Source: Bacteroidales bacterium (GTDB taxonomy: Bacteria > Bacteroidota > Bacteroidia > Bacteroidales > Bacteroidaceae). From it: a stretch of DNA of 64,000 bases. The translations under genes and the position numbers were made by a program. Of the stretch, positions 16,194-50,019 are shown one piece after another (position 1 is the stretch's first letter; the number at the start of each line of letters is the position of its first letter). Below the pieces are notes generated by a model. It ran no database searches. It saw nothing but the letters and a program-made list of their open reading frames with translations, and had not been told where the DNA came from. Location: contig SUXO01000001.1 in the NCBI GenBank assembly GCA_015060885.1, forward strand, positions 62,001-126,000, written 5' to 3'.

Positions 16194-18497
16194 ATGAATA
16201 TGATTAAGAGATTTTTTATTATAGCTTTTACGCTATTCCTACCAATAAGTATGAATGCCGGTATTGGCGACTGGACACTTCATACTTCGTACTGTAATAC
16301 CACAAGCTGCCAGGTTGCAGGTGATAAAGTATATGTATTGGCATCGGGGTCACTGTTTGTTTACGACAAAAAGGATAATTCCGTATACACCTATGACAAA
16401 CAGAACAGTTTAAGCGATTTCAATATAGCATACATTAATTATTGTAAAGGAATTGATGCATTGCTGATTGTATACAAGAATGCAAATATAGATATTCTAT
16501 ATTCAAATGGCTATGTATACAATATATCGGATTTCAAGAATAAGATAATATCCAATAAGAATATAAACGGAGTAAACATATATGGCAACACAGCCTATAT
16601 AAATACCAGTTTCGGTGTAGTACTGCTCGACCTTGAAAATCTCGAATTTACAAACACATACAACCTTAACCTTAATACATATTGTTCATACACAGCCGGG
16701 AGCGATATATATATAGGAACTGAAACCGGCATTTACAAGGGTTCCGTGGAAGACAACCTGCTCGACAAGGCAAACTGGACTAAAATTAACAGCTATAAGA
16801 CATATGTTATAAACAGTATAAACGGAAAACTTATTGCAGTAATCAATGGAAAAGGTGCCTGCACACTTAAAAGCGATGGTTCGATAGAAAAAACCATTGT
16901 AGCCAATACAAAGCAGAACAAATATTCATATAACTATAATAACAGCCTTTATATAGGGTGGAATAACCAGCTTGCCATAATAAACAGCGATACCGATTAC
17001 AAAACCTACACGCCTGCAACAGAAAGTGAATTCATTATGGCCGATGGAAATGGTTTTTGGAGCTGTAAAGGGGAAAAAGGAGTAGTGGAGAGCAAAATTG
17101 CCGATACTAAAATTGTAGACGGAGAAAATTATATAATTCCCAACAGCCCCATACGCAACTATTGCGAATTTATTAAATTCTCTCAAAACAATAAACTGCT
17201 TGTTGCCGGTGGAACACTAAACTATTTCGATGTTACATTCTACCCTGGAACACTTATGGAATATGATTATTCCAGCAACAAATGGATAAACTTCCCCGAA
17301 GAAGAGATTAAAACCACAACAGGAATACAATATGTCAACCTTTGCTCAATTGACGAGGACCCGACTGAACCCGGACACTATTTTGCAAGCTCTTTCGGAC
17401 AGGGTATATATGAGTTCCGCAATGGAAAATTTGTGGCACACTACAACCATAAGAACAGCCCACTTGAATCTCCTGTACCGGCATCGATGAATTATGTCAG
17501 AATTCCGAGAGTGCAATTCGATGCAGCCGGTAACCTATGGGTTGTAAACACCAATTGCAAAGATATTGTAAAGGTACTTAAAAAAGATGGTTCCTGGGTT
17601 ATATTACCATACGATGATATTACAGATTTTCCCACAATGGTCGATATGATAATAGATTCAAGAGGATGGTTGTGGATAACATCGTACCAGGCTATTCCGG
17701 GAGTGTTCTGTGCAAAGATGAACAACACACCGTTCGATATAGCCGATGACCGAACGAAATTGGTTATAAACAACTTTATAAACCAGGATGGTACAAGTTA
17801 TAAAATAGACCAGGTATATTGCATAAAAGAGGATAAGAACGGACAGATATGGGTGGGTACCAACAATGGATTATTTGTTGTTACAGATGCCGAAAAATTC
17901 TTTAAGGATGGTGTTTTAACCCAAATAAAGGTTCCCCGCAACGATGGAACCGGCCTTGCCGACTACCTGTTTGGCGGAGCCCAGATTTCGGCCATTGAGA
18001 TAGATGGTGCCAACAGAAAATGGATAGGCACCAAGAACAACGGAATATACCTTGTGAGCAGCGACGGACTGGAAACCATACACCACTTCACAAAAGATAA
18101 TTCAATGCTGCCATCGAACGATATTACAAGCATTGCTGTAAACAAGAACAGTGGTGAAGTATTTATAGGAACAAGTGAGGGTATCGCAAGTTATGTGAGT
18201 GATGCCACCGAACCTTCACCCACCTTGCAAGAGAGTGCCGTACACGCTTATCCAAACCCCGTAAAAGCCCTGTACAACGGAGTTATTTCAATAGTTGGAC
18301 TGACACACGGTTGTGAGGTCAAAATAGTCGACACGGCCGGATATTTGATTACAGAGGGTATTTCCATTGGTGGACAGTTCACTTGGAACGGACGCAACGC
18401 ACAGGGCGAGAAGGTTTCAAGTGGAGTCTACTATGTTCTTATGTATGATGAGAACGGCGATGAAAGCCTCGCTACCAAAATACTTATTACACGATAA
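16194..18497 (+). CDS. porZ: PorZ-like two-propeller protein with T9SS sorting domain
   Basis: Secreted protein, 767 aa. It has a signal peptide (MNMIKRFFIIAFTLFLPISMNA|GIGDW), then two stretches of beta-propeller repeats (about 25-310 and 330-680, the latter with blades such as WVGTNNGLFVV and WIGTKNNGIYLV). A C-terminal type A sorting domain (about 690-767) runs from HAYPNPVKALYNG to YYVLMYDENGDESLATKILITR. This order and length match PorZ, the surface protein of the type IX secretion attachment complex known from Porphyromonas gingivalis. No other T9SS genes lie in the window. A strong terminator follows. Alternative: a generic propeller protein exported by T9SS. Confidence 0.82.
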   Translation: MNMIKRFFIIAFTLFLPISMNAGIGDWTLHTSYCNTTSCQVAGDKVYVLASGSLFVYDKKDNSVYTYDKQNSLSDFNIAYINYCKGIDALLIVYKNANIDILYSNGYVYNISDFKNKIISNKNINGVNIYGNTAYINTSFGVVLLDLENLEFTNTYNLNLNTYCSYTAGSDIYIGTETGIYKGSVEDNLLDKANWTKINSYKTYVINSINGKLIAVINGKGACTLKSDGSIEKTIVANTKQNKYSYNYNNSLYIGWNNQLAIINSDTDYKTYTPATESEFIMADGNGFWSCKGEKGVVESKIADTKIVDGENYIIPNSPIRNYCEFIKFSQNNKLLVAGGTLNYFDVTFYPGTLMEYDYSSNKWINFPEEEIKTTTGIQYVNLCSIDEDPTEPGHYFASSFGQGIYEFRNGKFVAHYNHKNSPLESPVPASMNYVRIPRVQFDAAGNLWVVNTNCKDIVKVLKKDGSWVILPYDDITDFPTMVDMIIDSRGWLWITSYQAIPGVFCAKMNNTPFDIADDRTKLVINNFINQDGTSYKIDQVYCIKEDKNGQIWVGTNNGLFVVTDAEKFFKDGVLTQIKVPRNDGTGLADYLFGGAQISAIEIDGANRKWIGTKNNGIYLVSSDGLETIHHFTKDNSMLPSNDITSIAVNKNSGEVFIGTSEGIASYVSDATEPSPTLQESAVHAYPNPVKALYNGVISIVGLTHGCEVKIVDTAGYLITEGISIGGQFTWNGRNAQGEKVSSGVYYVLMYDENGDESLATKILITR

Positions 18498-18530: not shown

Positions 18531-18561
18531 AACAGCCGGCGTTTGCCGGCTGTTTGTATTT
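18531..18561 (+). terminator. Terminator after porZ
   Basis: A ten-bp stem AACAGCCGGC / GCCGGCTGTT (18531-18540, 18545-18554) with a GTTT loop is followed by TGTATTT. Confidence 0.8.
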
Positions 18562-18599
18562 TGAACGATGTTTAGGTTGCACATTATTGAACCGGCCGC

Positions 18600-19020
18600 T
18601 CCTTTTCAACCGTTATTATTATATATCTTTCCTTTTTTAAATAATTAAATAAATCAACAACAATAACAAAATCGGTTAATATTGTGGATATCTTTTTCGA
18701 AAAGTGGTTTTTAATGCATTTAAATAGTTGAATATAGGTTTATTTATAGAATATAAATTCTGTAACCACTTGTTTTATAATAATATATTTAAATGTATAT
18801 TTGTATCGAAATTAAATATATACATATAACCTATTGTTAAAAACCTGTTAAAAAACTATTGATAAATGGATGTAAAAAAGTGGCAAAATAATTTGGCTTT
18901 TTAATTCAGTTCACGGCTTAATTTTTAAGTTTGTTTTTCAAAGAGAAATTGCCATTATTTTCAACCTATTTATCCCACTCTTTTCAACAACATATCAACA
19001 ATTATAAACAATGTTTTGAA
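18600..19020. other. Candidate chromosomal replication origin (oriC)
   Basis: Part of a 608-bp gap without genes, strongly AT-rich. Five DnaA-box-like 9-mers lie in one orientation: TTTTCAACC (18958), TTATCCCAC (18970), TTTTCAACA (18981), ATATCAACA (18992) and TTATAAACA (19002). They are stepped 12, 11, 11 and 10 bp. A facing group lies at 18832-18879 (TATTGTTAA, TGTTAAAAA, TATTGATAA, TGTAAAAAA), and a lone TGTGGATAT sits at 18683. A 9-4-9 near-palindrome lies at 18744-18765. By hand sampling, genes on the plus strand to the left and on the minus strand to the right share A-rich coding strands, while the other two classes do not, as expected if forks leave from here. The flanking genes converge on the gap, which is less usual at an origin. 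Confidence 0.6.
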
Positions 19021-19038
19021 CAGTTTTGAACCTTTGTT

Positions 19039-19087
19039 CATATAAATCACAAAAGCCACCGGCAAGGTGGCTTTTGTGATTTATATG
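19039..19087. terminator. Long-stem terminator after the aminotransferase gene
   Basis: A perfect 22-bp inverted repeat (19039-19060 with 19066-19087) has a GGCAA loop. It ends the lptG-ribBA-aspC unit and shields the candidate origin from read-through. Confidence 0.85.
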
Positions 19088-19105: not shown

Positions 19106-20299
19106 TTATTTGAGTTTTGCAAGTGCCTCTTTAATGCGGCGCATAGCCTCTATAATGTTTTCGTCGCTTGTTGCATAGCTCATTCTGAAACATTCGGGAG
19201 AACCGAACGATGAACCTCCTACCGCTGCAACGTGTGCTTCTGTAAGCAGGTACATTGCCAAGTCATCGGAATTGTTTATAACCTGTCCGTTGTAGCTCTT
19301 GCCATAGAAAGAACTGCATTTAGGGAAGAGGTAGAATGCTCCTTCGGGTGTGTTTACTTCCAACCCCGGAATCTCTTTTGCAAGCTTTACAATGAGGTCG
19401 CGGCGGCGTTGGAAGGCTTTACGCATCTCCTCCACAGGTTCTTGTGAGCCGTTGTAGGCCTCTATTGAGGCTATTTGCGAAACAGAGCAGGGGCCGCTTG
19501 TATATTGTCCTTGCAGTTTATTGCATCCTTTCACAATCCAGTCGGCAGCGGCAAGGAAGCCAATTCTCCAACCTGTCATTGCATAAGCTTTTGATACACC
19601 GTTTATAATTATTACGCGGTCGCGTATTTCGCTGAACTGCGCAATGCTTTCGTGCTTGCCCACATAGTTTATGTGTTCATATATTTCGTCGGCAACAACG
19701 AATACGTCGGGGTGTTTAGCAAGTACATCGGCAAGCTCTTTGAGTTCCTCTTTTGTATACACCGAACCGGTGGGGTTCGAGGGTGAACAGAGAATCAGCA
19801 TCTTTGTTTTGGGTGTAATGGCTGCTTCGAGCTGTGCACCTGTTATCTTGAAGTTCTGTTCAATACCTGCACTTATTATTACAGGAGTACCGTCGGCCAT
19901 TTTTACCATTTCGGGATAGCTCACCCAGTAGGGGGCGGGTATAATAACCTCATCACCCTCATTCACAAGTGCCATAACAGCGTTGCACACCGATTGTTTT
20001 GCTCCGTTCGATACAGATATCTGTGCTTCGGTGTATTCGAGTCCATTCTCCTTTTTAAGCTTTTCTACAATAGCTTTGCGCAACGCAGGGTAGCCGGGAA
20101 CGGGTGAGTAGCGCGACCAGTTATCGTCAACTGCCTGTTTTGCTGCTGTCTTAATGGCATCGGGAGTGTTAAAGTCGGGTTCTCCCACACTCATATTTAT
20201 TACATCTACGCCTTGTGCTTTGAGCTCTTGGCTTTTTTGTGACATTGCCAATGTAGCCGATGGGGCTAATCTGTTGACACGGTTTGATAGTTTGTTCAT
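19106..20299 (-). CDS. aspC: Aspartate aminotransferase (class I PLP enzyme)
   Basis: Transfers the amino group between aspartate and 2-oxoglutarate in the cytoplasm. The protein is 397 aa from the ATG at 20299 (MNKLSNRVNRLAPSATLAM). The ORF-track start at 20389 lies inside ribBA and would add 30 residues unlike the family, so I reject it. The PLP lysine is in GVSKAYAMTGWRIGF near residue 237; SPSNPTGSVYTKEEL and YATSDENIIEAMRRI are the other class I marks. It is the last gene of a minus-strand run, 16 bp after ribBA. Narrow-specificity relatives (prephenate or aromatic aminotransferases) are possible, but the family I-gamma aspartate type fits best. Confidence 0.92.
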   Translation of the reverse strand: MNKLSNRVNRLAPSATLAMSQKSQELKAQGVDVINMSVGEPDFNTPDAIKTAAKQAVDDNWSRYSPVPGYPALRKAIVEKLKKENGLEYTEAQISVSNGAKQSVCNAVMALVNEGDEVIIPAPYWVSYPEMVKMADGTPVIISAGIEQNFKITGAQLEAAITPKTKMLILCSPSNPTGSVYTKEELKELADVLAKHPDVFVVADEIYEHINYVGKHESIAQFSEIRDRVIIINGVSKAYAMTGWRIGFLAAADWIVKGCNKLQGQYTSGPCSVSQIASIEAYNGSQEPVEEMRKAFQRRRDLIVKLAKEIPGLEVNTPEGAFYLFPKCSSFYGKSYNGQVINNSDDLAMYLLTEAHVAAVGGSSFGSPECFRMSYATSDENIIEAMRRIKEALAKLK

Positions 20300-20315
20300 A
20301 TTGTTATATAGTTCT

Positions 20316-21533
20316 TTATTTTTTATCGAAATGCAGTGTGTGTCCCATTCTCTCGGCCTTTGTATGCAGATATCGCGAGTTGAAATCATTGGGTTCTATC
20401 TCTATGCTTACATTTTCCATTACTTCGAGCCCGTAACTTTCGAGTCCTATTCGTTTTACAGGGTTATTTGTAATGAGGCGCATTTTATGGACACCTATTT
20501 TTCTTAGAATTTCGGCACCCACACCGTAATCCCTTTCGTCGGCTTTGAATCCAAGGCATAGGTTGGCATCCACAGTGTCCATTCCCTCTTCTTGCAATTT
20601 GTAAGCCTTCATTTTGTTCATAAGACCAATTCCGCGGCCCTCCTGGTTAAGGTATACAATAACTCCCTTTCCGGTCTTGTCGATAAGTTCCATAGCTTTG
20701 TGAAGTTGTGAACCGCAGTCACAACGTTGCGAACCGAATATGTCACCTGTCATACACGATGAATGTACTCTCACAAGAATTGGTTCATCATCTTCCCATT
20801 CCCCTTTTATAAGAGCAATATGTTCAAGTCCGTTTGATTTCTGCTTGAATGGTATGAGGCGGAAGTGGCCGTGTTCTGTGGGCATATTGACCTCTTCACC
20901 CATCTCCACAAGTGATTCCTGTTGCAGACGATACTGTATGAGGTCGCTGATGGATATTATTTTCAGGTTATGTTTTGCAGCAATTTCAATGAGCTGTGGC
21001 ATACGTGCCATAGTGCCGTCTTCGTTCATTATTTCAATAAGTGCAGCAGCGGGGTAGAGGCCTGCAAGGCGTGCAAGGTCAATACTTGCTTCGGTGTGTC
21101 CGGCACGGCGCAGCACGCCGTTATCCTGGGCATATAGGGGGTTTATGTGTCCGGGGCGTGCAAATGTATCGGCTGTGCTTGCAGGGTCGGAAAGAGCCTT
21201 TATTGTCGCCGCTCTGTCGGCTGCCGATACGCCTGTACTGCAACCATCTATTTTATCTATTGTTACAGTAAAAGGAGTTCCCAAAAGGCTGGTGTTGGTA
21301 TTAACCTGCGGGTCGAGCTGCAACTCCTTGCAACGCGACATTGTTATAGGTGCACATAGTACCCCACGGCCGTTTTTAAGCATAAAGTTTACAGCATCGG
21401 GGGTTATCTTTTCGGCTGCTATTATAAAATCGCCTTCGTTCTCTCTGTCTTCATCATCAACCACAATAAGAAATTTACCCTCTTTGAAATCCCTTATGGC
21501 ATCTTCGATAGAACTCAGTTTAAATTTTTCCAT
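20316..21533 (-). CDS. ribBA: Bifunctional DHBP synthase / GTP cyclohydrolase II
   Basis: Makes both precursors of riboflavin. The N-terminal RibB half (about 1-200) forms 3,4-dihydroxy-2-butanone 4-phosphate from ribulose 5-phosphate. The C-terminal RibA half (about 205-405) opens GTP. RibB carries [12 protein letters not shown] and [15 protein letters not shown]. RibA carries the zinc site [15 protein letters not shown] and [14 protein letters not shown]. The length of 405 is standard for the fusion. The gene lies 9 bp after the LptG-type gene, leaving no space for an FMN riboswitch directly upstream, so control is presumably from the operon promoter. Confidence 0.97.
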
Positions 21534-39061: not shown

Positions 39062-42000
39062 CTATTCAAAGAAACGGAAAGTATCGTACCACTTTATCTT
39101 CTTCTTTGCAAGTTCGCTGCCCTGTTTTTCGGCAAGGCGGTACCAGCGTGCGGCGGCAAACTCGTTTTTCTTTGTTCCGCGCCCCTTTTCGTAGCAGTAT
39201 GCTACACGTTCCATTGCTTTGGGGTGCCGTTGGTTTGCAGCCTCGTGGTACCAGTGGAATGCTCTCTTACGGCTCTTTTTGACATATGTGCCCTTCTCGT
39301 GGAATTGCGCCAACTTGAACTGTGCCTCTCTGTGTCCGGCCTTTGCGGCGCGGGTGTAGTAGTCGCCGGCAGGGCTTTTGCGCATTTTTCGTTTGCTTAA
39401 TCCGGCTGCAATATCCTCCTTTTCCTTTATTTGGCCAAGTATAAAGAGGGCAACGGGCTCCTCCTGTCCGGCAGCCTTCATATACCAATTGTAAGCGACA
39501 GCGCTGTCCGGTTTCACTCCAATGCCTTTCATATAGCAGTCGGCAAGTATGGTCTGCGATGCAGCGTAACCGTTCTCGGCCGAAAGGGTGTAGTATTTTA
39601 TTGCAAGCGAGTCGTTTTTGTGCGTTCCCACTCCGTGCATATAACAGCTTGCAAGGTTGTGCAGGGCTGCCTTGTTGCCCAGGTTTGCTGCTTTGCGGAA
39701 ATTTGTGAATCCTTTGATGCTGTCCTGTTCGGTGCCCAGGCCAAGCATAATGCAGACAGCTGTGTTGAAAACCGCGTCGGGGTAGCCGAGTGCAGCAGCC
39801 TCGCTGAACAGTTTGAAGGCCTCATTATACTCTTTTTCGCGGAACAGTTTGCGCCCCTCTTCGTTTTTCAGGAAGCAGTGGGCAAGCAGTTCGGGAGTGT
39901 CTATTCCTGTTATGGGCCTGATGGTGCGTTCTGCTTCGTTCCTCTGTTTCACAAGGTCGTCTATGCGGCGTGTGAACATTGTGCTGTCGGTGCTGTAAAA
40001 TGTGCCGTCGGCATATCCCTCGACATTTACATCTATGCTCCTGGCTGTGGAGTTATTGTATAGCTCAACCTTAATTTTACCATCAATGGCTGTTGCCTGC
40101 GGAACCCACAAAAGGGTACGGCGATAGTCGCGCACGCTGCTGTCGGGGCGTAGTGTGCTGTAATCGGGGGCATAGAACTGCTTGCTTTGGGTGTAACCGT
40201 ACACAAGTGTGTAGCGGGCACTGCTGCTGTGCGACAGTTGCGGTATAAGGCTGCCGGCCCTCTCTTTTTCGCTGTTGGGTATGAAGCAGGCGACATAGTT
40301 GGGCATTTCATCGTCTTGTGCATTTTTGCTCTTCCTCTCGAAGGTTATTGCATCGGGCGCATCGTCTATATCCCAGTTTCTGGGCGGTATGCCTGTTTTT
40401 TGTGTAAACAGGTGGTAGAATGTGGAATAGTCGTAAGTCTTTATACTTTTAGTGTTTCCGCTCTGGACCCTTTTTCCGTTGTATAGTTTGCGCGTGTTTT
40501 CATCGGAGCGTATCACAATCTCCTTGAAGTCCAGCATTTTGGAAACATTCACGCCGGCGGTGTACTCTTCGTTGCTGCGTGGTATGCTGTCGGTGTGGTA
40601 TTCTCCGTCGAGAACCATACCTTGTATCCAATAACACCAGTTGAGGTTGTGCCGCCAGAATGCACTGCGCATAATGTCGACCGCGGTGAGAGTGTTGTGG
40701 TAGGCAGGGTCCTGAATGAGAAAGCTGCTCTGTCTCCTTATCTTGTTCATTCCACCAAAAACATCGACTACAATGCCATTGCCGCCGCTATTTAATCCAC
40801 CGTTGCTGCCCATAACGTACCGGTCGAACGATGAAAGAGTGGGCGCACCGAGCGAATACTCTTTTATACCATAGGGTGTGGAGTGGTCGAAAATGTGGTT
40901 TACAAAAGGGGATTCATAGTGACCGTATGAGCGGTAGCCGGTGGGGTCCCACGGGTCTATGCGGTTGGTGAGGTATGTGACATCCTGGGCATACTCCCAC
41001 TCGTCGAGGAAGTCGAGGCGCATTTCACTGCGTGGCGGGCGGTAGTTGCTGCTGCGTTTCTTTTTCGACACCACCTCGACCTGTGTGAGCAGGTATTCAA
41101 AGGGGTTTATCCTTATAATCTCCTCTCTCGCCTCTTTCAGCCTCTCCTGCGTAAGTGCTTTTCCTGTGTTGCGCTCCCAATAGTCGTACAGGCGCATGGC
41201 GGGCGAAAAATAGCGGTCGAGGTTGAATGCGAATATGCTGTCTTTGGTCGAAAGCGAGTTGAGTGCAGGGGTGAGCTTTGCCACTTTCTTACCATAGAAA
41301 TCCTTTGTGTTCAGGCGAAATTCTCCCTTTTCATCGGTCTTGAAATCATATTTGGTGACATTGCTGTCGCGGTAGGTAATCTCGAACTTTACCCTGCTGT
41401 CGGGTATGGTTGTAACAATGTATTTGTCGAGCTTGCCTATCCTGCGGTTGGGTTTCTTCTTTATGAACCTCCCGTTTACGGTTATCCCTTTTTCAATGGG
41501 CTCGGCAAGGTCGGCAAATCTGTTGCACAGTTTGCTCCAATCGTACGATGTCCAGCCGTGGGTGAGCATTACAAGGTCGAGTTCACGTATGCGGTTCCCG
41601 TTTGCGGGGTTAAAGTAGCGTGCAGCATCGGGGATGTACCCTTTTACTTCGCTGCCGAGCAGCATATAGGTGTATATGTTGTAGCTGTACGATGTTGTCA
41701 GCGGTGTGTCGGCATCGGTTACTGCGAGCGAGAAGTTGCCGCCTGTGAGGGGGGTACCATCCTCGCGTTCGATGCTCAATGTGATTTTCCCGTGCGGTGT
41801 CGCTTGCAAGTTGTCGAGCGGACGGTCATTGCTCTTCACCAACAGCCTGGCAGTGGGGCGGTCATCGACAATTGTTCCGTCGTGGGTAACGAAGAACATT
41901 CTTTCGGCAAGAGGCAAGCCTTCGCCTGCAAAGAGTATCACGCGGTTTACACCTTCGGGCAATGTGTTGCGGTCTATGGCAAAATAGACACTCTTTTCAT

Positions 42001-42988
42001 TCGATGAGAAGCGTTCGTAGAAATTGGTCTTTCCGCGGTGGACCGCAGCACAACCCAGTTCCACCGGCGATACGATGGTATTCTTCACGGAAATACCTAT
42101 GGTGCTGCTGTTGTGGTCGAGTGTTATTGCAACCCCCTCGCTCTCGGCTTCGGGGAGGCGGAATTTCTTTTTGTTGCCGTGAATGGCTGCGCTGTATTTT
42201 ACCCCTTTCTGCGGGTTCAAAAGGAATGTGCCCTTTCCCATATGTTCGGGTGTGGCGGTAAAGAGCTCGTCTCCATCGGCAAACACGGTTATGCTTTTCC
42301 CGCTGTTTATGCCGTCGGGCCCGAAGATTTCATAGGCTACACGTGTTTCCACACCTTCGAGAAGGTGTCCTCCTTCGGGGTAGAATTTGATATCCCATTC
42401 GGGCAGTTTGCCGTTCTCCCATCGCATTTTACGGTCGAGGCCTGTAACGCTGCTGTCCTTGTCGATATCGACCAGGAACGCCCTGCGTCTGTCGAGCATA
42501 TTGCGGAATGTGTAATCGCCGTTCTTCACCTTGTCGAACACGGGGAATACGCGGCTGAACACTGCATCCTTGCCGCGGTTGAGCATATATCTTGTGTAGG
42601 AACGCACCTCGTAATAACCCGACAGCAGCTGCTCGTTGAGCTCAAAGGAGCCGTCGCAGGTTCCGTTGTCGTCTATCTTGTATTTCTGTGTGCGCACCAC
42701 ATACCCTTCGGGTGCCACAAGTTCCACATACAGCACACGGCTTATAGTGGTGGGAGTGTCCTGTGTGCCGCTTGTCACGTAGGCTTTGAACCAGATGCTC
42801 TCGCCCAGGTAGTAGCTGTTATTGTCGAAATGGAGGTATACACGCTCTTCGGGGAACAGTTCCTGTTTTATAACCGACCGCACAACAAGGTTGTCGAGCG
42901 TGTTGCGCAGGGTGCTGTCCTTCTTCTCTTGTGCTGTTGCCGCCAGAGTGGCGAGCAACAGGATGTATGTAAGCAATCTCTTCATCAT
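39062..42988 (-). CDS. Large envelope protein: MG2-like and TonB-plug-like domains plus Sel1 repeats
   Basis: 1308 aa, with a signal peptide MMKRLLTYILLLATLAATAQ. The N-terminal part (about 40-160) looks like a macroglobulin MG2 domain (ERVYLHFDNNSYYLGESIWFKAYV). The middle (about 390-760) has carboxypeptidase-like beta domains and a plug-like NGGLNSGGNGIVVDVFGG stretch, as in other Bacteroidetes MG2/plug proteins. Residues about 1025-1300 are Sel1/TPR-like repeats (AAALGYPDAVFNTAVCIMLG; AAKAGHREAQFKLAQF). The mix suggests a periplasmic or outer-membrane scaffold. It is 7 bp after the M56 gene in the BlaI-type operon, so it is probably the output of that sensor. Function unknown. Confidence 0.75.
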   Translation of the reverse strand: MMKRLLTYILLLATLAATAQEKKDSTLRNTLDNLVVRSVIKQELFPEERVYLHFDNNSYYLGESIWFKAYVTSGTQDTPTTISRVLYVELVAPEGYVVRTQKYKIDDNGTCDGSFELNEQLLSGYYEVRSYTRYMLNRGKDAVFSRVFPVFDKVKNGDYTFRNMLDRRRAFLVDIDKDSSVTGLDRKMRWENGKLPEWDIKFYPEGGHLLEGVETRVAYEIFGPDGINSGKSITVFADGDELFTATPEHMGKGTFLLNPQKGVKYSAAIHGNKKKFRLPEAESEGVAITLDHNSSTIGISVKNTIVSPVELGCAAVHRGKTNFYERFSSNEKSVYFAIDRNTLPEGVNRVILFAGEGLPLAERMFFVTHDGTIVDDRPTARLLVKSNDRPLDNLQATPHGKITLSIEREDGTPLTGGNFSLAVTDADTPLTTSYSYNIYTYMLLGSEVKGYIPDAARYFNPANGNRIRELDLVMLTHGWTSYDWSKLCNRFADLAEPIEKGITVNGRFIKKKPNRRIGKLDKYIVTTIPDSRVKFEITYRDSNVTKYDFKTDEKGEFRLNTKDFYGKKVAKLTPALNSLSTKDSIFAFNLDRYFSPAMRLYDYWERNTGKALTQERLKEAREEIIRINPFEYLLTQVEVVSKKKRSSNYRPPRSEMRLDFLDEWEYAQDVTYLTNRIDPWDPTGYRSYGHYESPFVNHIFDHSTPYGIKEYSLGAPTLSSFDRYVMGSNGGLNSGGNGIVVDVFGGMNKIRRQSSFLIQDPAYHNTLTAVDIMRSAFWRHNLNWCYWIQGMVLDGEYHTDSIPRSNEEYTAGVNVSKMLDFKEIVIRSDENTRKLYNGKRVQSGNTKSIKTYDYSTFYHLFTQKTGIPPRNWDIDDAPDAITFERKSKNAQDDEMPNYVACFIPNSEKERAGSLIPQLSHSSSARYTLVYGYTQSKQFYAPDYSTLRPDSSVRDYRRTLLWVPQATAIDGKIKVELYNNSTARSIDVNVEGYADGTFYSTDSTMFTRRIDDLVKQRNEAERTIRPITGIDTPELLAHCFLKNEEGRKLFREKEYNEAFKLFSEAAALGYPDAVFNTAVCIMLGLGTEQDSIKGFTNFRKAANLGNKAALHNLASCYMHGVGTHKNDSLAIKYYTLSAENGYAASQTILADCYMKGIGVKPDSAVAYNWYMKAAGQEEPVALFILGQIKEKEDIAAGLSKRKMRKSPAGDYYTRAAKAGHREAQFKLAQFHEKGTYVKKSRKRAFHWYHEAANQRHPKAMERVAYCYEKGRGTKKNEFAAARWYRLAEKQGSELAKKKIKWYDTFRFFE

Positions 42989-42995
42989 ATTGCTG

Positions 42996-44480
42996 TCAGT
43001 TTATGGGTGTTGAACCTACAAGCATCGGTCGTCTGCTTGTCTGCTGTGTTTCTGCTTTGCCGTGCCGGTATATTATGTGTGCATCGTATATGGTGTTGGC
43101 CTTTTCACCGTCCACTATTGCCGAAGCCCACTCTTTCTGCTTTATGTACTCCTCGGCAGAGGCTATCATAGCCGAGCGTATGAGCTCTATGTTGTCGACA
43201 ATGTTTTCGTTGCTTGTATTAAGCGATATGTCGCACCCTTTTATTGCAATGTCGCCGGCTTGTCCGTTATTGTCGGCAATGAATGATGCTCTCACGCTGC
43301 ATCTCCTAATATCGCTTTTTGCGATGCCCGGTGCTGTATCATTGTCTTGCAAGTTCATATATCCGTAATATGTTTCACTTGCATACCTAATGGCTGTTAC
43401 GCTCTCTTGCGGTGTCGTAGCCTTCTCTGTTGTAGCAGGTGCTGTGGCTGTTATGGTGTCGGTTGGCTGTTGCACTGCCTTTGTGGCAACCGTGGCTCTT
43501 TTTTTCTTTTTCGTTGGTACCGGGGGCGGGGGAACGGTTGTCCGGGCTGTTACAATTGGCGCAGTTTCTTCCTTTGTATGGGTTGCCGCAACGTCGGCTG
43601 TTACCTCTTTGTAGCTGTATATATATTGTGGCTTGGCAAACAACAACAGCAACAGCGATGTTGCGGGTATAAGGTAGAGCCACTTGGCGAGCCTGGCTCT
43701 GTCCGACTCTTTGCGTGCCATCATTGTAATTCTTTTGCGCACGCTGCTCTGGCTGAACCTGTTTATGAGTTGTGTGCCCGCGTTGCTTGCCGCCTTTTTG
43801 AGTATGAGCAACTGGTAGTCGCGTGCATTGTCGCTGTGCTCCATAACATATCGGTCGGCTTCGTATTCGTGTATCTCCTTTATGTCGTTTTCGAGCATAT
43901 ATATAAATGGGTTGAACCATTGGAACGCTTTTACTGCGGCAAGCAGCAGTATGTCCAGCGAGTGGCGGTGGAGTATGTGCCCCTCTTCGTGCAGGAGAAT
44001 CTCTTTTCCACACTCGTTATAGTCGCTTTCCGAAATTACAATATGGTTGAACCAACTGAAAGGGGCAACAGTGTCGGCGTGGCAGTGTATTATGGCTTTT
44101 CCACGCTGTTCGGTCCACAGTGTTCCGCGTCTTATGGCAGTGGCGGCCTTTGTGATACCCATTGCTGTTCCCAAAAGAGTGAAAGCTACCCCGGCAAGGT
44201 ATATTGCAAGGATAATGTTTTCCCATTCTATGGCGGTTGTGGCTCCTTGAATTGCTGTTGTTGCAATGTTGGTGCCTGCAACGATGTTTGCCGGTGCTTC
44301 CATTACAACGGTAAAGTGTATTTCGGCCCACGGCAGCAGTGCCGACACTACCACCGTGCCAAGCAACAGCAGGCGGTTGAGCGATGCAAATGTCTCCTTG
44401 CGCAGCAGCAACGTGAAAGGAATGTAAAGCACCGCAAGGCAGATGGTCCATTTGATTATATATACAAGGAATGCGCTCAT
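42996..44480 (-). CDS. M56 (BlaR1/MecR1-like) membrane metallopeptidase
   Basis: 494 aa. The N-terminal 110 residues hold three hydrophobic helices, then the zinc protease motif HEEGHILHRHSLD lies near residue 160 with a distal Glu in EIHEYEADRYV, and a fourth helix follows (WLYLIPATSLLLLLF, about 265). The rest is periplasmic, with a Pro/Lys-rich linker (TTVPPPPVPTKKKKRA) and no penicillin-binding sensor domain, so it does not look like a beta-lactam receptor. By analogy with BlaR1 it should cleave or inactivate the BlaI-type repressor encoded 21 bp upstream. The signal it senses is unknown. Confidence 0.88.
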   Translation of the reverse strand: MSAFLVYIIKWTICLAVLYIPFTLLLRKETFASLNRLLLLGTVVVSALLPWAEIHFTVVMEAPANIVAGTNIATTAIQGATTAIEWENIILAIYLAGVAFTLLGTAMGITKAATAIRRGTLWTEQRGKAIIHCHADTVAPFSWFNHIVISESDYNECGKEILLHEEGHILHRHSLDILLLAAVKAFQWFNPFIYMLENDIKEIHEYEADRYVMEHSDNARDYQLLILKKAASNAGTQLINRFSQSSVRKRITMMARKESDRARLAKWLYLIPATSLLLLLFAKPQYIYSYKEVTADVAATHTKEETAPIVTARTTVPPPPVPTKKKKRATVATKAVQQPTDTITATAPATTEKATTPQESVTAIRYASETYYGYMNLQDNDTAPGIAKSDIRRCSVRASFIADNNGQAGDIAIKGCDISLNTSNENIVDNIELIRSAMIASAEEYIKQKEWASAIVDGEKANTIYDAHIIYRHGKAETQQTSRRPMLVGSTPIN

Positions 44481-45078: not shown

Positions 45079-46641
45079 TTACATATTTATAAATATAAGT
45101 TCATTTATTACATCTTTAATTATATTATCAATTTGTTTTGAAGGAACTTTAATTCTTTTGGTTAATATGATATTGCCTACATTGATTAAATTGTTTGTAT
45201 CGCAATTTATTTTGTAAATTAAAAACTGTTTATATAGTGGAATAAAGCGATTTGGACACATTTTTTGCGCTTTAGAATAATGAAGAATGGCATTATTATA
45301 TTGATGCTGTTTTTTATATATATCACCCAATAGTAGCTCTAAATCATAATCAGCCCAGTATTTCCTACATATCAACGCTGTTTCAAGAGACCTATTATAA
45401 TCTTCATAAAGATATAATTTTACAGAATAGTTATATAGAAAATATGGGTCATTTCCAAGTATTGACATCAAAGAGTCATATTTTGATATAAATGTATCCT
45501 TTTTAGAGGTTATATAGGCGATTTTACACCATTCTTTTTCTGCAGATATTCGTTCGATTATACGATATAGTACAATTGAAGAAAGACAAAATAATATAAT
45601 GATAAATGGATATTTGATTATGTTTTTTTTGATAAAACGAAATTTATACGCATTGTGAATTAAAATATAACTATTTATCGCAATTATAATCCAAGTAAAA
45701 GGATAGTATAGTGGATAAGAAAAGGCTCCTAAAACACCTATTGTTGCAATAGAAACAAGTGCATACATTCCGATACTTGATGGTGATTTTTTATAGCAAT
45801 GTATCATAAGACCGATGAAAATACATAATATAATCAATCCGATTATTCCGAAACATATACATATTGCAAAAAAATCATTGAATACGTGTTTTACATTGTC
45901 TGCTAATAAAGAAATATTATTGTTTGAATTTTTTGTCAACCATTCTGCTTGAAAATCCATATAATGCGCAGAAATGCCATTAAAGCCATAGCCTATTATC
46001 GGGTGCTTCTTAATCATTTCCCAAGCACTGCATAGTATCAATAAACGCCCATCTGCAGAATCTTTTTTTATAAAATACATTATCGGTAAAAGGACTATAC
46101 AGAAACAGAGAAACAACCATTGTAACCACTTCCTATACTTCTTATTAAAAACCCAAACGGAGCATGGAACAAATATTCCTGCAATTATTCCCGACCGAGA
46201 TCCAGAAAGTATTAAAGCGGTGCATATAATAGCAAATAAAGAAAGCGATAATAGTTTATGGAAGTTTTTTTTACTTATTTGTATGAGGTAGAGGCAATAA
46301 GGAGTACTTATGCTTAAACATGCAGCCAAACCTGCCGGATTGTCAAATCCTCCAACAATTTGAGGTGGAGTTTTAAATTGAAATAATTGAATTATAGCAT
46401 AAATAGATTGGCAAAAACAAATAAATACCACTGCTATAATCAAATATTTTTCATATATTTTTATTTGTTTCTTTAATAATACGATAATACATCCAATCAT
46501 ATTGCCAACAGTAACAAGACCTAATGTATATAACCATTTTGTCAGTATCTGCGTATCCGTCATTTGGGAGCTATATAGGAATGTTGCAAATATAGATAGG
46601 GTTAAAAAATATAACAGTTGTATTATTTGTATAACCATCAT
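45079..46641 (-). CDS. O-antigen-ligase-like (Wzy_C) membrane protein with TPR tail
   Basis: 520 aa, AT-rich. About ten to twelve hydrophobic helices fill residues 1-380. The Wzy_C signature region DGRLLILCSAWEMIKKHPIIGYG lies near residue 197 at the start of the large periplasmic loop. The C-terminal 120 residues are soluble, with TPR-like helices (LELLLGDIYKKQHQYNNAILHYSKAQ). Such proteins join a glycan to an acceptor (LPS core, or protein in PglL-type enzymes). No glycan locus is adjacent inside the island, so the acceptor is unknown and a peptide or protein target is only a guess. Last gene of the island run, 8 bp after the ATPase gene. Confidence 0.8.
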   Translation of the reverse strand: MMVIQIIQLLYFLTLSIFATFLYSSQMTDTQILTKWLYTLGLVTVGNMIGCIIVLLKKQIKIYEKYLIIAVVFICFCQSIYAIIQLFQFKTPPQIVGGFDNPAGLAACLSISTPYCLYLIQISKKNFHKLLSLSLFAIICTALILSGSRSGIIAGIFVPCSVWVFNKKYRKWLQWLFLCFCIVLLPIMYFIKKDSADGRLLILCSAWEMIKKHPIIGYGFNGISAHYMDFQAEWLTKNSNNNISLLADNVKHVFNDFFAICICFGIIGLIILCIFIGLMIHCYKKSPSSIGMYALVSIATIGVLGAFSYPLYYPFTWIIIAINSYILIHNAYKFRFIKKNIIKYPFIIILFCLSSIVLYRIIERISAEKEWCKIAYITSKKDTFISKYDSLMSILGNDPYFLYNYSVKLYLYEDYNRSLETALICRKYWADYDLELLLGDIYKKQHQYNNAILHYSKAQKMCPNRFIPLYKQFLIYKINCDTNNLINVGNIILTKRIKVPSKQIDNIIKDVINELIFINM

Positions 46642-46649
46642 TATTGTAT

Positions 46650-47369
46650 TTATCTTAACAGCTCATTGATTATTTTATTGTAATTTAATATAAAATATTT
46701 AGTAAAACAAAATTGTTCTGTATTTTCATAGTTGGTAAGTTCCAAACCGTAGTTTGTTATTTTGTATATTTCAGCACCAGGGTATGCAAGTAAAATTGGT
46801 GAATGTGTCGCAATTATAAATTGTGAATTGTTTTTTTCTAATTCTTTTATTTTTACAATCAATTTAAAAATACTTGATAATGATAATCCTGATTCTGGTT
46901 CATCAAAAATATATAAGCCATTGCCCGATAATCTATTTAATACAACTCCAAGAAAGCCTTCTCCATGGGAACGCTTGTGGAGTGCACCACCATAATTTTT
47001 TAATAATTTAAATCCATCTGTTATTCTATCGATTTCAGTTGCGATATTATAAAAACTTTCTGCTCTTAAAAAATACCCATCTTTATTCCTAATAGTTCCT
47101 CTCGTTAATTTAATATCGCGATACAAGGTTGAGTGAGTGTTCTGTGTTTGATAGTTTAAGAACAAACTTCCCCCCTCTGGATTAAAGCCTGCACGTATCG
47201 CAATAGCTTCAATTAAAGTGGATTTACCAGTACCATTCTCACCAATAATAAAGGTCACATTATTATTGAATTCAAATTCGTTTAAGTTTCGAATTGCAGG
47301 AATATTATATGGGTATTCCAAACGTTCTGATATCTGTTTTTCGTTGGTTATCTTTTTTATGTAAATCAT
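46650..47369 (-). CDS. ABC-type AAA ATPase (COG3910-like)
   Basis: 239-aa soluble ATPase of the SMC/ABC class. Walker A is GENGTGKSTLIEAIA near residue 43, the signature region is KRSHGEGFLGVVLNRL, Walker B is GLYIFDEPESGLSLSS near residue 152, and the switch His is in FIIATHSPILLAYPG. It lacks membrane segments and coiled coils, so it is not a transporter by itself. The family is common as a stand-alone gene of unknown role; relatives with nuclease partners act in phage defence. The start overlaps the upstream small gene by 4 bp, tying it to the two small proteins. Confidence 0.9.
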   Translation of the reverse strand: MIYIKKITNEKQISERLEYPYNIPAIRNLNEFEFNNNVTFIIGENGTGKSTLIEAIAIRAGFNPEGGSLFLNYQTQNTHSTLYRDIKLTRGTIRNKDGYFLRAESFYNIATEIDRITDGFKLLKNYGGALHKRSHGEGFLGVVLNRLSGNGLYIFDEPESGLSLSSIFKLIVKIKELEKNNSQFIIATHSPILLAYPGAEIYKITNYGLELTNYENTEQFCFTKYFILNYNKIINELLR

Positions 47370-47698
47370 TCTGAGATTAAACCCTTATCAAGTAATTCCT
47401 TTTTTAGTTTATAATATAATTCTAATTCAAGTTCTTGTTCTTGAATTGTATTATTTACATCACGAATGTTGGTAGGTGTTGAAATAACACTTTCGTCTAA
47501 TGTATCAAATGCTATTGTAATAACTTCATTGAGATTTAATTTTCTGTGCTCCCAAGAATAAAAAAGTGCATTTTCGTCCATTCCGTTAATGCTGATATTA
47601 AAATCCCCTTCTTTATTCGATATTATTATTCCAAAAGACCCGGATTTTAATGCTGCATAAATATTTTCTTCTCCGGCTTTTATTATAAAACCATTCAT
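47366..47698 (-). CDS. Small island protein, paralogue of its upstream neighbour
   Basis: 110 aa, not recognised. Predicted mostly beta (FIIKAGEENIYAALKSGSFGIIIS) with a charged C-terminal helix (ELELYYKLKKELLDKGL). It shares with the next protein the MNG start, a strand-rich front, an NEVITI/GDIIKI segment, a Thr-Pro patch and the same helix ending in KGL. No signal peptide, so cytosolic. Overlaps both neighbours by 4 bp. The pattern suggests a protein pair working with the ATPase encoded behind it. Confidence 0.7.
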   Translation of the reverse strand: MNGFIIKAGEENIYAALKSGSFGIIISNKEGDFNISINGMDENALFYSWEHRKLNLNEVITIAFDTLDESVISTPTNIRDVNNTIQEQELELELYYKLKKELLDKGLISE

Positions 47699-48030
47699 AA
47701 TAATCCTTTGCTTTTTAGCGAAGTTTCTAATGCATAAAACATTTCCAATTTTGATGGTAGTGGGGTTATATTATTATCATAAACACTTTCAATTGGTGTT
47801 GTTGTATCTTTTATATTGACAAGTCTTATTTTAATAATATCTCCTTTCTCTATCAGGTTGTATTTATGCCCAATGTGTCTGATTTTATTATCATAATCAA
47901 TGCTTGCTGAATATAAAAAAGCTCCCTTTTTATTATTTGAGTTTATAGAATTTATATGTACGATCGTTTGACCGTTCTTAACTCCAATTAGAGTTCTTTT
48001 ATTATTATAAATTATTTCTATACCATTCAT
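47695..48030 (-). CDS. Small island protein, paralogue of its downstream neighbour
   Basis: 111 aa, not recognised. It starts MNGIEIIYNNKRTLIGVKNGQTIVHIN and ends SKLEMFYALETSLKSKGLL, parallel in layout to the downstream 110-aa protein, so the pair probably arose by an old tandem duplication. No hydrophobic segment and no cysteines. The stop overlaps the next start by 4 bp, and its own start overlaps the stop of the 322-codon gene, so all three are translationally coupled. Confidence 0.7.
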   Translation of the reverse strand: MNGIEIIYNNKRTLIGVKNGQTIVHINSINSNNKKGAFLYSASIDYDNKIRHIGHKYNLIEKGDIIKIRLVNIKDTTTPIESVYDNNITPLPSKLEMFYALETSLKSKGLL

Positions 48031-48974
48031 TGTTTTTTACATTTATGTGTTGAGTATGGAGGCCAATAGCCTTGTGTTAAACAGAATTGTAAGCAAATAG
48101 AGCAACCATCAATTATTTCAGAATAACAAGATTCAAATTCTTGCTGACAGTATTCGTAGTTTTCATCTGCGGTCTTATCAAATTTTTTGCATACAAGATA
48201 TTCATATAGCATCACGCCGGCTGTGTATACCATAAATCCTGTCGCAACAGCTGTGGCAGCCCCAATAACCATAATTTCATCGCCAGGTATAGGGGTCGCT
48301 ATTGCAACTAACATTGATGTAGCTAAAACCTTATGACATAATTCACCAAAGTTTTCGTTAGATTCACTTCTTGTTTTTATCAATATGTGCTGTGTGGCTG
48401 TACGAGAGGTATGTATCATCAAACCTTGACTTTCTAGATATTGAATCTCTTTCATTCCATAGTATAGTACTGATGTTACATTAAATAACCTTTCCTGTTG
48501 TATTTGTGGTACTACTTCATAAATATCTTCATTTATTTTCAATAAAACATTGTAGTATTCCTTAATTGAGGTAGTAGAGTTGCATTCGTCAATTATTCTA
48601 TTTAAGAATTCAATTTGAATTTTTGTTAAATTTTTGACTTGTTCTACAAATCTTTTTGGGCTTATGTTGTATTCATAGATAGAGCCTTTTGTTTTACAAA
48701 TATTGGGGTTCGCATTGTAAAAATCATTATAAAAATTTTCTTTAAATTCTAACGACTCGTTAGCATTTGAATAATCGACCCCTTGTTTATGTAAGTTTCT
48801 AATTGTAATATTTAATTCTTTTGCAACTCCTTGTCCTAATTGTTTTGAAGTTTCTGGCCAATTTTCTCTGTACTCAATTTGTCTAAATCTGTTAAATTCA
48901 TCTAAATCGCTGCTACAATAGCAAAAAATAATTATCGAAAGACTTAAAAAAAGTGTTAAAATTTTGATTCTCAT
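48027..48974 (-). CDS. Secreted island protein with hydrophobic Gly/Ala segment and Cys-rich tail
   Basis: 315 aa from the ATG at 48974 (MRIKILTLFLSLSIIIFCYCSSD). The earlier in-frame ATG at 48995 adds seven residues before the signal peptide and overlaps the upstream gene. An N-terminal export signal, perhaps a weak lipobox, leads into a mainly helical body. A long apolar stretch follows near residues 216-262 (MLVAIATPIPGDEIMVIGAA), and then a tail with seven cysteines (EYCQQEFESCYSEIIDGCSIC). I recognise no family. A secreted effector, toxin or carrier is conceivable from the shape alone; an ordinary envelope protein is equally possible. Confidence 0.65.
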   Translation of the reverse strand: MRIKILTLFLSLSIIIFCYCSSDLDEFNRFRQIEYRENWPETSKQLGQGVAKELNITIRNLHKQGVDYSNANESLEFKENFYNDFYNANPNICKTKGSIYEYNISPKRFVEQVKNLTKIQIEFLNRIIDECNSTTSIKEYYNVLLKINEDIYEVVPQIQQERLFNVTSVLYYGMKEIQYLESQGLMIHTSRTATQHILIKTRSESNENFGELCHKVLATSMLVAIATPIPGDEIMVIGAATAVATGFMVYTAGVMLYEYLVCKKFDKTADENYEYCQQEFESCYSEIIDGCSICLQFCLTQGYWPPYSTHKCKKQ

Positions 48975-48978
48975 AAAA

Positions 48979-50019
48979 TTATTTAACGTTTGCATTTATT
49001 GTTATTGTATATATAGGTGTATCTAAAGAGTTAGATGCTATGTGTACCTCTCTATAAATACTGCCTTTATTTTCTGGTGTGAAATCAAATTTTAATATTA
49101 TTGATTTTCCAGGGTTTATAATGTTTTTTTTTGAACTATTTATCTTTACACAACTGCAACTCGTTAGTATATCTGAAATTTTAAGAGGATGTCCCCCGTT
49201 GTTAAATATTTCAATATTCACATTGTATGTGTGGTTTATTATGCAATTGGGTAGGTTTACTATATTTGTTGATGAGGAAATCTTTGGTGCAGAATTATTA
49301 TACATAGGATTAAGGACTTTGTTTGCTATTAATAATTCATCATAATAGTAAAATATATCTGATGCAGAATCAAATTCAAGAAGTTCCTTAGCTGTTTCTC
49401 TTGCTTCTATGGTTTTATTAAAATGTATCTGATTTTCTAATTTTAAATATAAGAGATATGGGTGTTTTCTTTTTGCAAGTAATGAGTCTATACAAATATC
49501 AGCATCTTTGTTTGTATATATTTTTGATTTTAATATTAAAGCATTATTAACCATATTTATGATATCCTTTTTATCTTTTTCATAGTTTTGGTTGTAATGA
49601 AACTCAGAGGAAGTTTCTTCTGAAAGAATTGCTTTATCAATATAATAGAAACTCTCTATTGAACTTCCAGGTACTAATTCTATTAGTTGTTTATTTGTGT
49701 TGAATACACAAGTAACAGGATAAATGTGTGGGGATAATAACTTTGAGTACCATTTGTTATCGTTGTTGTAGACATTTATAAAGTTATACAAAATACTGTG
49801 GGGCAATTTTGTATGTGTTTTTATCATTTTGAGATATTCGTTTACGGTGAAATGTGTTGAGTCTATAAGTACTATGCAGAAAGGCAGGCCTGTATTATCT
49901 GACAAACTGCGAATCTCATCTATACTTTTATTATTATATGTATAAAACTTATTTTCTTCATTAATACATGAAAGTGTAAAAAGAATACTCATAAAGTAAA
50001 AAAATAAAAAATTTTTCAT
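48979..50019 (-). CDS. Lipoprotein with C-terminal DUF1573 domain
   Basis: 346 aa. Signal peptide and lipobox MKNFLFFYFMSILFTLSC predict a lipid-anchored protein. The front half (GLPFCIVLIDSTHFTVNEYL) may be a degenerate thioredoxin-like fold without a CxxC pair. The last 90 residues are an Ig-like DUF1573 domain (LKISDILTSCSCVKINSS; KGSIYREVHIASNS). In Bacteroidetes such proteins are often encoded beside exported peptides and Wzy_C proteins. First gene of the island run, with 167 bp of AT-rich DNA in front holding only a weak promoter match (TATTTTTA on the minus strand). Confidence 0.78.
   Translation of the reverse strand: MKNFLFFYFMSILFTLSCINEENKFYTYNNKSIDEIRSLSDNTGLPFCIVLIDSTHFTVNEYLKMIKTHTKLPHSILYNFINVYNNDNKWYSKLLSPHIYPVTCVFNTNKQLIELVPGSSIESFYYIDKAILSEETSSEFHYNQNYEKDKKDIINMVNNALILKSKIYTNKDADICIDSLLAKRKHPYLLYLKLENQIHFNKTIEARETAKELLEFDSASDIFYYYDELLIANKVLNPMYNNSAPKISSSTNIVNLPNCIINHTYNVNIEIFNNGGHPLKISDILTSCSCVKINSSKKNIINPGKSIILKFDFTPENKGSIYREVHIASNSLDTPIYTITINANVK

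Follow-up and report, generated by a model that had tools for sequence, protein, structure and literature searches.

Identification of the probable chromosomal replication origin of an uncultured Bacteroidaceae genus in an intergenic gap beside aspC

A noncoding, unstranded element of about 420-430 bp (18603..19022) is very probably where chromosome replication begins (oriC) in an uncultured genus of Bacteroidaceae. The window, that is, the whole stretch of 64,000 nucleotides that we analyzed, comprises bases 62001-126000 of contig C53 from a MAG of 2.24 Mb in 64 contigs. Five box-like 9-mers at the right end of the element had been proposed as a candidate oriC in an earlier note made from the sequence of the window, and the proposal is supported by a minimum of cumulative TA skew, by conservation across the genus and by a homologue at the skew minimum of the Bacteroides mediterraneensis chromosome. 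The evidence for the core is DNA conservation in the genus, the TA-skew minimum and profile homology to origins upstream of nadA, and it is oriC by every defining feature that is testable from sequence. An oriC is a known kind of object; its relocation and an inverted repeat within it are less expected.

The element is located within a 600-bp gap between two genes that converge on it. The left neighbour is porZ (16194..18497, plus strand; type IX secretion; NF052228, 736 bits), and the right neighbour is an aspartate aminotransferase-like gene, aspC (19106..20389, minus strand), whose best family match lies below the curated cut-off. Each gene has its own terminator-like hairpin, at 18533-18552 for porZ and at 19052-19074 for aspC. 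The strong AT richness described earlier is evident, as every one of the top 420-bp segments for AT in the 64 kb begins within 18541-18641 (78%). The earlier note was also right that the flanking genes face each other, which it had counted against an origin. However, the DNA search recovered two conserved blocks in about 20 members of the genus, always in one order and at one spacing. With a profile of the right half, 35 of the 44 genus genomes gave a match, convincing in 34, and a single strong element locus per genome was found in 34 of the 44. In some members, porZ was not found on the left or aspC was not found on the right, and the element was retained; therefore, the element is conserved for itself. 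Since the element persists beside changing neighbours on either side, convergence of the flanking genes is no argument against an origin.

Strand composition was followed in 11 genus contigs of 40-293 kb, with genes called by a simple longest-ORF rule and fourfold-degenerate third positions counted per gene strand. In 11/11 contigs, fourfold T-A on the plus strand was close to -0.2 in almost every bin left of the element and close to +0.2 right of it, with the sign changing within one 5-kb bin of the element. In every contig, genes directed away from the element were T-rich and genes directed towards it were A-rich, apart from two gene classes with a value of zero, of which one was empty. The flip also holds inside each gene-strand class. 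Six contigs (G000, G007, G001, G006, G011 and G004) had the cumulative TA minimum inside the element's own intergenic gap, and the remaining five had it 1.6-5.3 kb to the right of the element; the permutation p was 0.0005 for each contig. This TA-skew change is a strand-composition switch of origin sign in all 11 contigs.

In bacteria, leading strands are usually T-rich and G-rich, and a T-rich leading strand is the sign of an origin. The strand bias that had been sampled by hand in the window proved right for nearly every gene at fourfold sites: left plus genes (leuS, porZ) and right minus genes (aspC and the gene of a 1308-aa protein) were mostly A-rich or near zero, and left minus genes (mutS) and right plus genes (metG) were T-rich. 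The direction, negative plus-strand T-A on the left and positive on the right, fits an origin and not a terminus, as had been argued. A replication terminus, in which a skew switch would meet incidental boxes, is extremely improbable. Flanking genes do converge close to some termini, but the sign of the switch is opposite, so that leading-strand genes would have to be A-rich against both the usual pattern and the Bacteroides control, and a terminus would not be expected to have DnaA boxes.

Minima of both cumulative TA and cumulative GC skew over the whole chromosome had been expected at the element. In the contigs read, the TA minimum lay at the element or within about 5 kb of it in 11/11 contigs, but the GC minimum was absent: cumulative GC skew in the window had no minimum at the element, GC4 was about equal in all four gene classes of the element's own contig and GC skew had no switch. 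Therefore, a method using GC skew only would miss this origin, and the compositional case for it is made by TA skew.

We also considered that two convergent genes might simply be separated here by ordinary AT-rich DNA, or that a small RNA gene had escaped detection there, with a skew driven by transcription. The skew does change close to a change in gene orientation, and an inverted repeat exists in the element. However, the skew flips in each gene-strand class, the element is kept where its neighbours differ, no Rfam match was found in it, and swapping the arms of the repeat gave no evidence of covariation in the genus. This explanation has next to no chance of being correct, and it is largely refuted by the flip within gene classes together with conservation beside changed neighbours.

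Further evidence that the element is an origin came from outside the genus. The B. mediterraneensis chromosome (NZ_LT635783.1) was sampled every 200 kb, and 3.60-4.03 Mb was then read through. Its leading strands are T-rich and G-rich, and its cumulative TA4 and GC4 minima, located independently of the profiles, fall in one and the same gap, which lies upstream of nadA and follows the gene whose end is at 3,789,360. Although E-values are unreliable on such AT-rich DNA, the matched places were the predicted ones: with a full-length profile built from genus elements alone, the only B. mediterraneensis match listed was the region upstream of nadA (E 9e-15; about 815 kb searched); with the genus block-B model applied unfiltered to 60 kb of this chromosome, the best match was again upstream of nadA (E 9e-6); and with the reciprocal profile of nadA-side origins, the eight best matches in 1.53 Mb were genus elements on eight contigs, with the window ninth (E 0.022). 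The genus profile also matched upstream of nadA in most of 30 nadA loci from other Bacteroidaceae. Likeness between the B. mediterraneensis oriC and that of the window's genus extends over most of the 425-position profile and includes the skew minimum, the box layout and a pair of TTTGG and CAA motifs about 42 nt apart. They differ in location, upstream of nadA in the former and beside aspC in the latter. At the TA and GC minimum, the region upstream of nadA has an origin-like core (3,789,265-3,789,676; locus L330:9265-9676). A box cluster at 3,798,950-3,801,450 of B. mediterraneensis was rejected in favour of the region upstream of nadA, as it lies partly inside genes and 10 kb off the minimum.

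The nadA location is not universal, since the element was not seen upstream of nadA in some genera (e.g., loci L358, L366, L369 and L370). In the aspC loci searched from other Bacteroidaceae genera, the element was absent beside aspC, and the aspC side is therefore specific to the window's genus. The closest aspC relatives were MAGs named 'Bacteroidaceae bacterium' from herbivore guts, and JAFYSC010000101.1 (water buffalo cecum) has the element. An order-wide search with the block-B model gave mostly background outside the family. Two exact boxes 11 bp apart were tried as an order-wide marker and discarded as too strict, being absent even from the element's own genome. mutS, leuS and several further window genes also lie less than 100 kb from the Bacteroides origin; their presence near both origins points to local rearrangement of the origin region and not to an entirely new position.

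These comparisons bear on a further alternative, in which the element is a DnaA-titrating or DnaA-reactivating locus (datA/DARS-like) near the origin and not the origin itself. A dense box cluster alone would be compatible with such a locus, as would the skew minima that lie 1.6-5.3 kb to the right of the element in some contigs. However, the minima coincide with the element in six contigs and are near it in all 11, an AT-rich part and phased triplets adjoin the boxes, and the B. mediterraneensis homologue lies at the minimum of its chromosome despite a different gene neighbourhood. We consider this alternative very unlikely, and the reading of the element as oriC is retained below.

The element contains a cluster of DnaA boxes well above chance. 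The count of TTATCCACA, the E. coli DnaA box consensus, was not exceptional in the element at up to two mismatches, because the box of this lineage is TTWTCMACA. With at most one mismatch, TTWTCMACA occurs at 10 sites in 450 bp of the window against 1.5 expected, a density reached in 0/300 first-order Markov simulations. Exact TTWTCMACA boxes numbered 58 in 20 aligned orthologues against 1.55 expected, counts that are not independent because the sequences share ancestry. The orthologue boxes stand at fixed offsets from the left edge, at about 70(-), 137(+), 148(+), 192(+), 245(-), 255(-), 391(+) and 402(+). The boxes of the window are weaker than those of most relatives and include one exact match.

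Two arrays face each other in the right part of the element. The right-facing array (18958..19022, plus strand) begins with the five 9-mers reported earlier, which we confirmed as TTTTCAACC at 18958, TTATCCCAC at 18970, TTTTCAACA at 18981, ATATCAACA at 18992 and TTATAAACA at 19002, in steps of 12, 11, 11 and 10, and it ends with TTTTGAACA at 19014. The facing group was likewise present, forming a left-facing array (18835..18865, minus strand) of TTTTTAACA at 18835, TTTTTAACA at 18846 and TTATCAATA at 18857 in 11-bp steps. The conservation expected of the boxes held in part: those at 18981 and 18992 are well kept in relatives and the one at 19002 partly, but those at 18958 and 18970 are either weak or peculiar to the window. 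At the left edge of the element lies a DnaA-box-like TTTTCAACC (18603..18611, plus strand). A proximal box (18674..18682, minus strand) is weak in the window (ATATTAACC) and TTATCAACA-like in many relatives; a distal box, ATATCCACA (18683..18691, minus strand), abuts it. Degenerate boxes fill the middle, between this tandem pair (18674-18691) and the left-facing array (18835-18865).

To the left of the tandem pair, an AT-rich stretch (18613..18655, unstranded) of conserved composition, TTATAT..TCCTTTTTTAAA, is the probable DNA unwinding element, a role assigned to this conserved block by its composition. It is followed by five tandem AAN triplets, AAC-AAC-AAT-AAC-AAA (18656..18670, plus strand), which are DnaA-trio-like (3'-NAA-5') and are separated from the proximal box by a 3-nt spacer. 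Triplet positions 1 and 2 are invariant A in 20/20 orthologues, and the third base is variable at most triplets; such a pattern would be expected if every subunit of DnaA bound three nucleotides. According to the rule published for the unwinding system, at least three NAN triplets must lie no more than 16 bp from a DnaA box (PMC8287927). The element has five with a middle A, a match easily obtained in A-rich DNA, and the phased invariance is the specific part. The genus triplets, 3'-NAA-5', do not resemble 3'-GAT-5', the commonest form, which the rule does not require; the published motif is degenerate (PMC8287927). The basal unwinding system of Bacillus subtilis oriC (boxes 6/7 and DnaA-trios; PMC6669920, PMC8287927) likewise has tandem boxes, a short spacer and phased NAN triplets adjoining AT-rich DNA. 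In contrast, the B. subtilis triplets are mostly 3'-GAT-5', and the window's origin does not adjoin dnaA and has facing arrays with an inverted repeat. Several nadA-side origins also differ from the window's genus in this respect, having GAT-like rather than AAN-like triplets; GAT-repeat triplets lie by the proximal DnaA box in loci L348, L350, L351, L353, L354 and L365.

From these data, we suggest a putative mechanism for initiation. The position and homology of the origin were computed, and we infer binding, filament formation and unwinding from the DnaA box and DnaA-trio mechanism. DnaA would fill the TTWTCMACA boxes of the left- and right-facing arrays, with helical 10-12 bp phasing, and the tandem pair at 18674-18691. 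The tandem pair would load a DnaA filament leftwards onto the five AAN triplets (18656-18670), and the filament would open the AT-rich stretch at 18613-18655. The opened DNA would then permit helicase loading and give rise to two forks, one each way.

An inverted repeat (18873-18961) of the form TTTGG-N42-CAA is placed between the facing arrays. Its left arm, TAAAAAAGTGGCAAAATAATTTGG (18873..18896, plus strand), is conserved, and its right arm, CAAAGAGAAATTGCCATTATTTT (18939..18961, plus strand), follows after exactly 42 nt. Of 20 genus members, 19 have TTTGG and CAA 42 nt apart and one has them 43 nt apart; the distance is nearly the same in most nadA-side origins. The arms pair in 87.6% of cells, a value equalled in 0/500 shuffles, against at most 64% when slid, and their complementarity exceeds that of letter-shuffled arms. 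Within the genus, however, foreign arms scored as well as own arms in the swap (p 0.80), and compensatory change was therefore not established; the swap gave p 0.019 in the nadA-side set and 0.009 in the pooled set. A hairpin or RNA reading was not adopted, since the genus swap shows no covariation despite the pairing of the arms; a protein site present in two inverted copies is an equally possible reading of the repeat. In the B. mediterraneensis core, a 13-bp perfect inverted repeat, GAAAATTATTTCT/AGAAATAATTTTC, stands at the same place as the genus repeat with a different sequence. The palindromic TGCAAAGTTAAAAACTTT is strongly conserved between the box arrays of aligned nadA-side loci and is absent from the window's genus. 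We speculate, with less than even confidence, that Bacteroidaceae origins have an undescribed inverted repeat between facing DnaA arrays, with TTTGG/CAA inner ends about 42 nt (four helical turns) apart and drifting outer arms, that moves with the origin to new gene neighbours. It is possibly a new internal element of oriC, and an initiation regulator might bind to it, or it might fold into a hairpin joining the arrays.

The genome has an intact dnaA encoding a 464-aa DnaA with domains I, III and IV. This gene is on contig C48 and the element on C53, and adjacency to dnaA/dnaN, which is common and not required of an origin, was not found. An oriC far from dnaA is usual in Bacteroidetes (PMC4755523). 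In its locus (L001, G000:C48), dnaA lies beside a ribonucleotide-reductase-like gene, with no obvious origin element. The predicted oriC of Prevotella intermedia (1,498,452-1,498,927 of OMA14; PMC4755523), compared here by its description, is similar in length, has several DnaA boxes and a skew switch and is also far from dnaA. That prediction used GC skew (PMC4755523), which is weak in the window's genus.

As far as the open literature that we searched shows, origins of gut Bacteroidaceae are mostly computational predictions. We found no description there of the window's origin or the nadA-side core, and DoriC may list nadA-side origins. A base-level core is recognizable by homology even when a MAG is fragmented. 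It could serve to estimate growth rate from read-depth gradients in uncultured family members and as a minimal origin for replicon building. The triplet pattern offers a comparative test of the DnaA-trio model in this phylum, which goes unmentioned in the text of PMC6669920 and PMC8287927.

Two other parts of the window deserve mention. At 45079-50019, beside a WbqC-like gene, GC drops to about 29% over minus-strand genes encoding an O-antigen-ligase-like protein (Wzy_C), an AAA ATPase, a DUF1573 protein and several unknowns, and this looks like a horizontally acquired block. The 1308-aa protein encoded at 39062-42988 has Sel1 repeats and a weak MG2 match, and its gene is directly adjoined by that of a BlaR1-type M56 peptidase (42996-44480).
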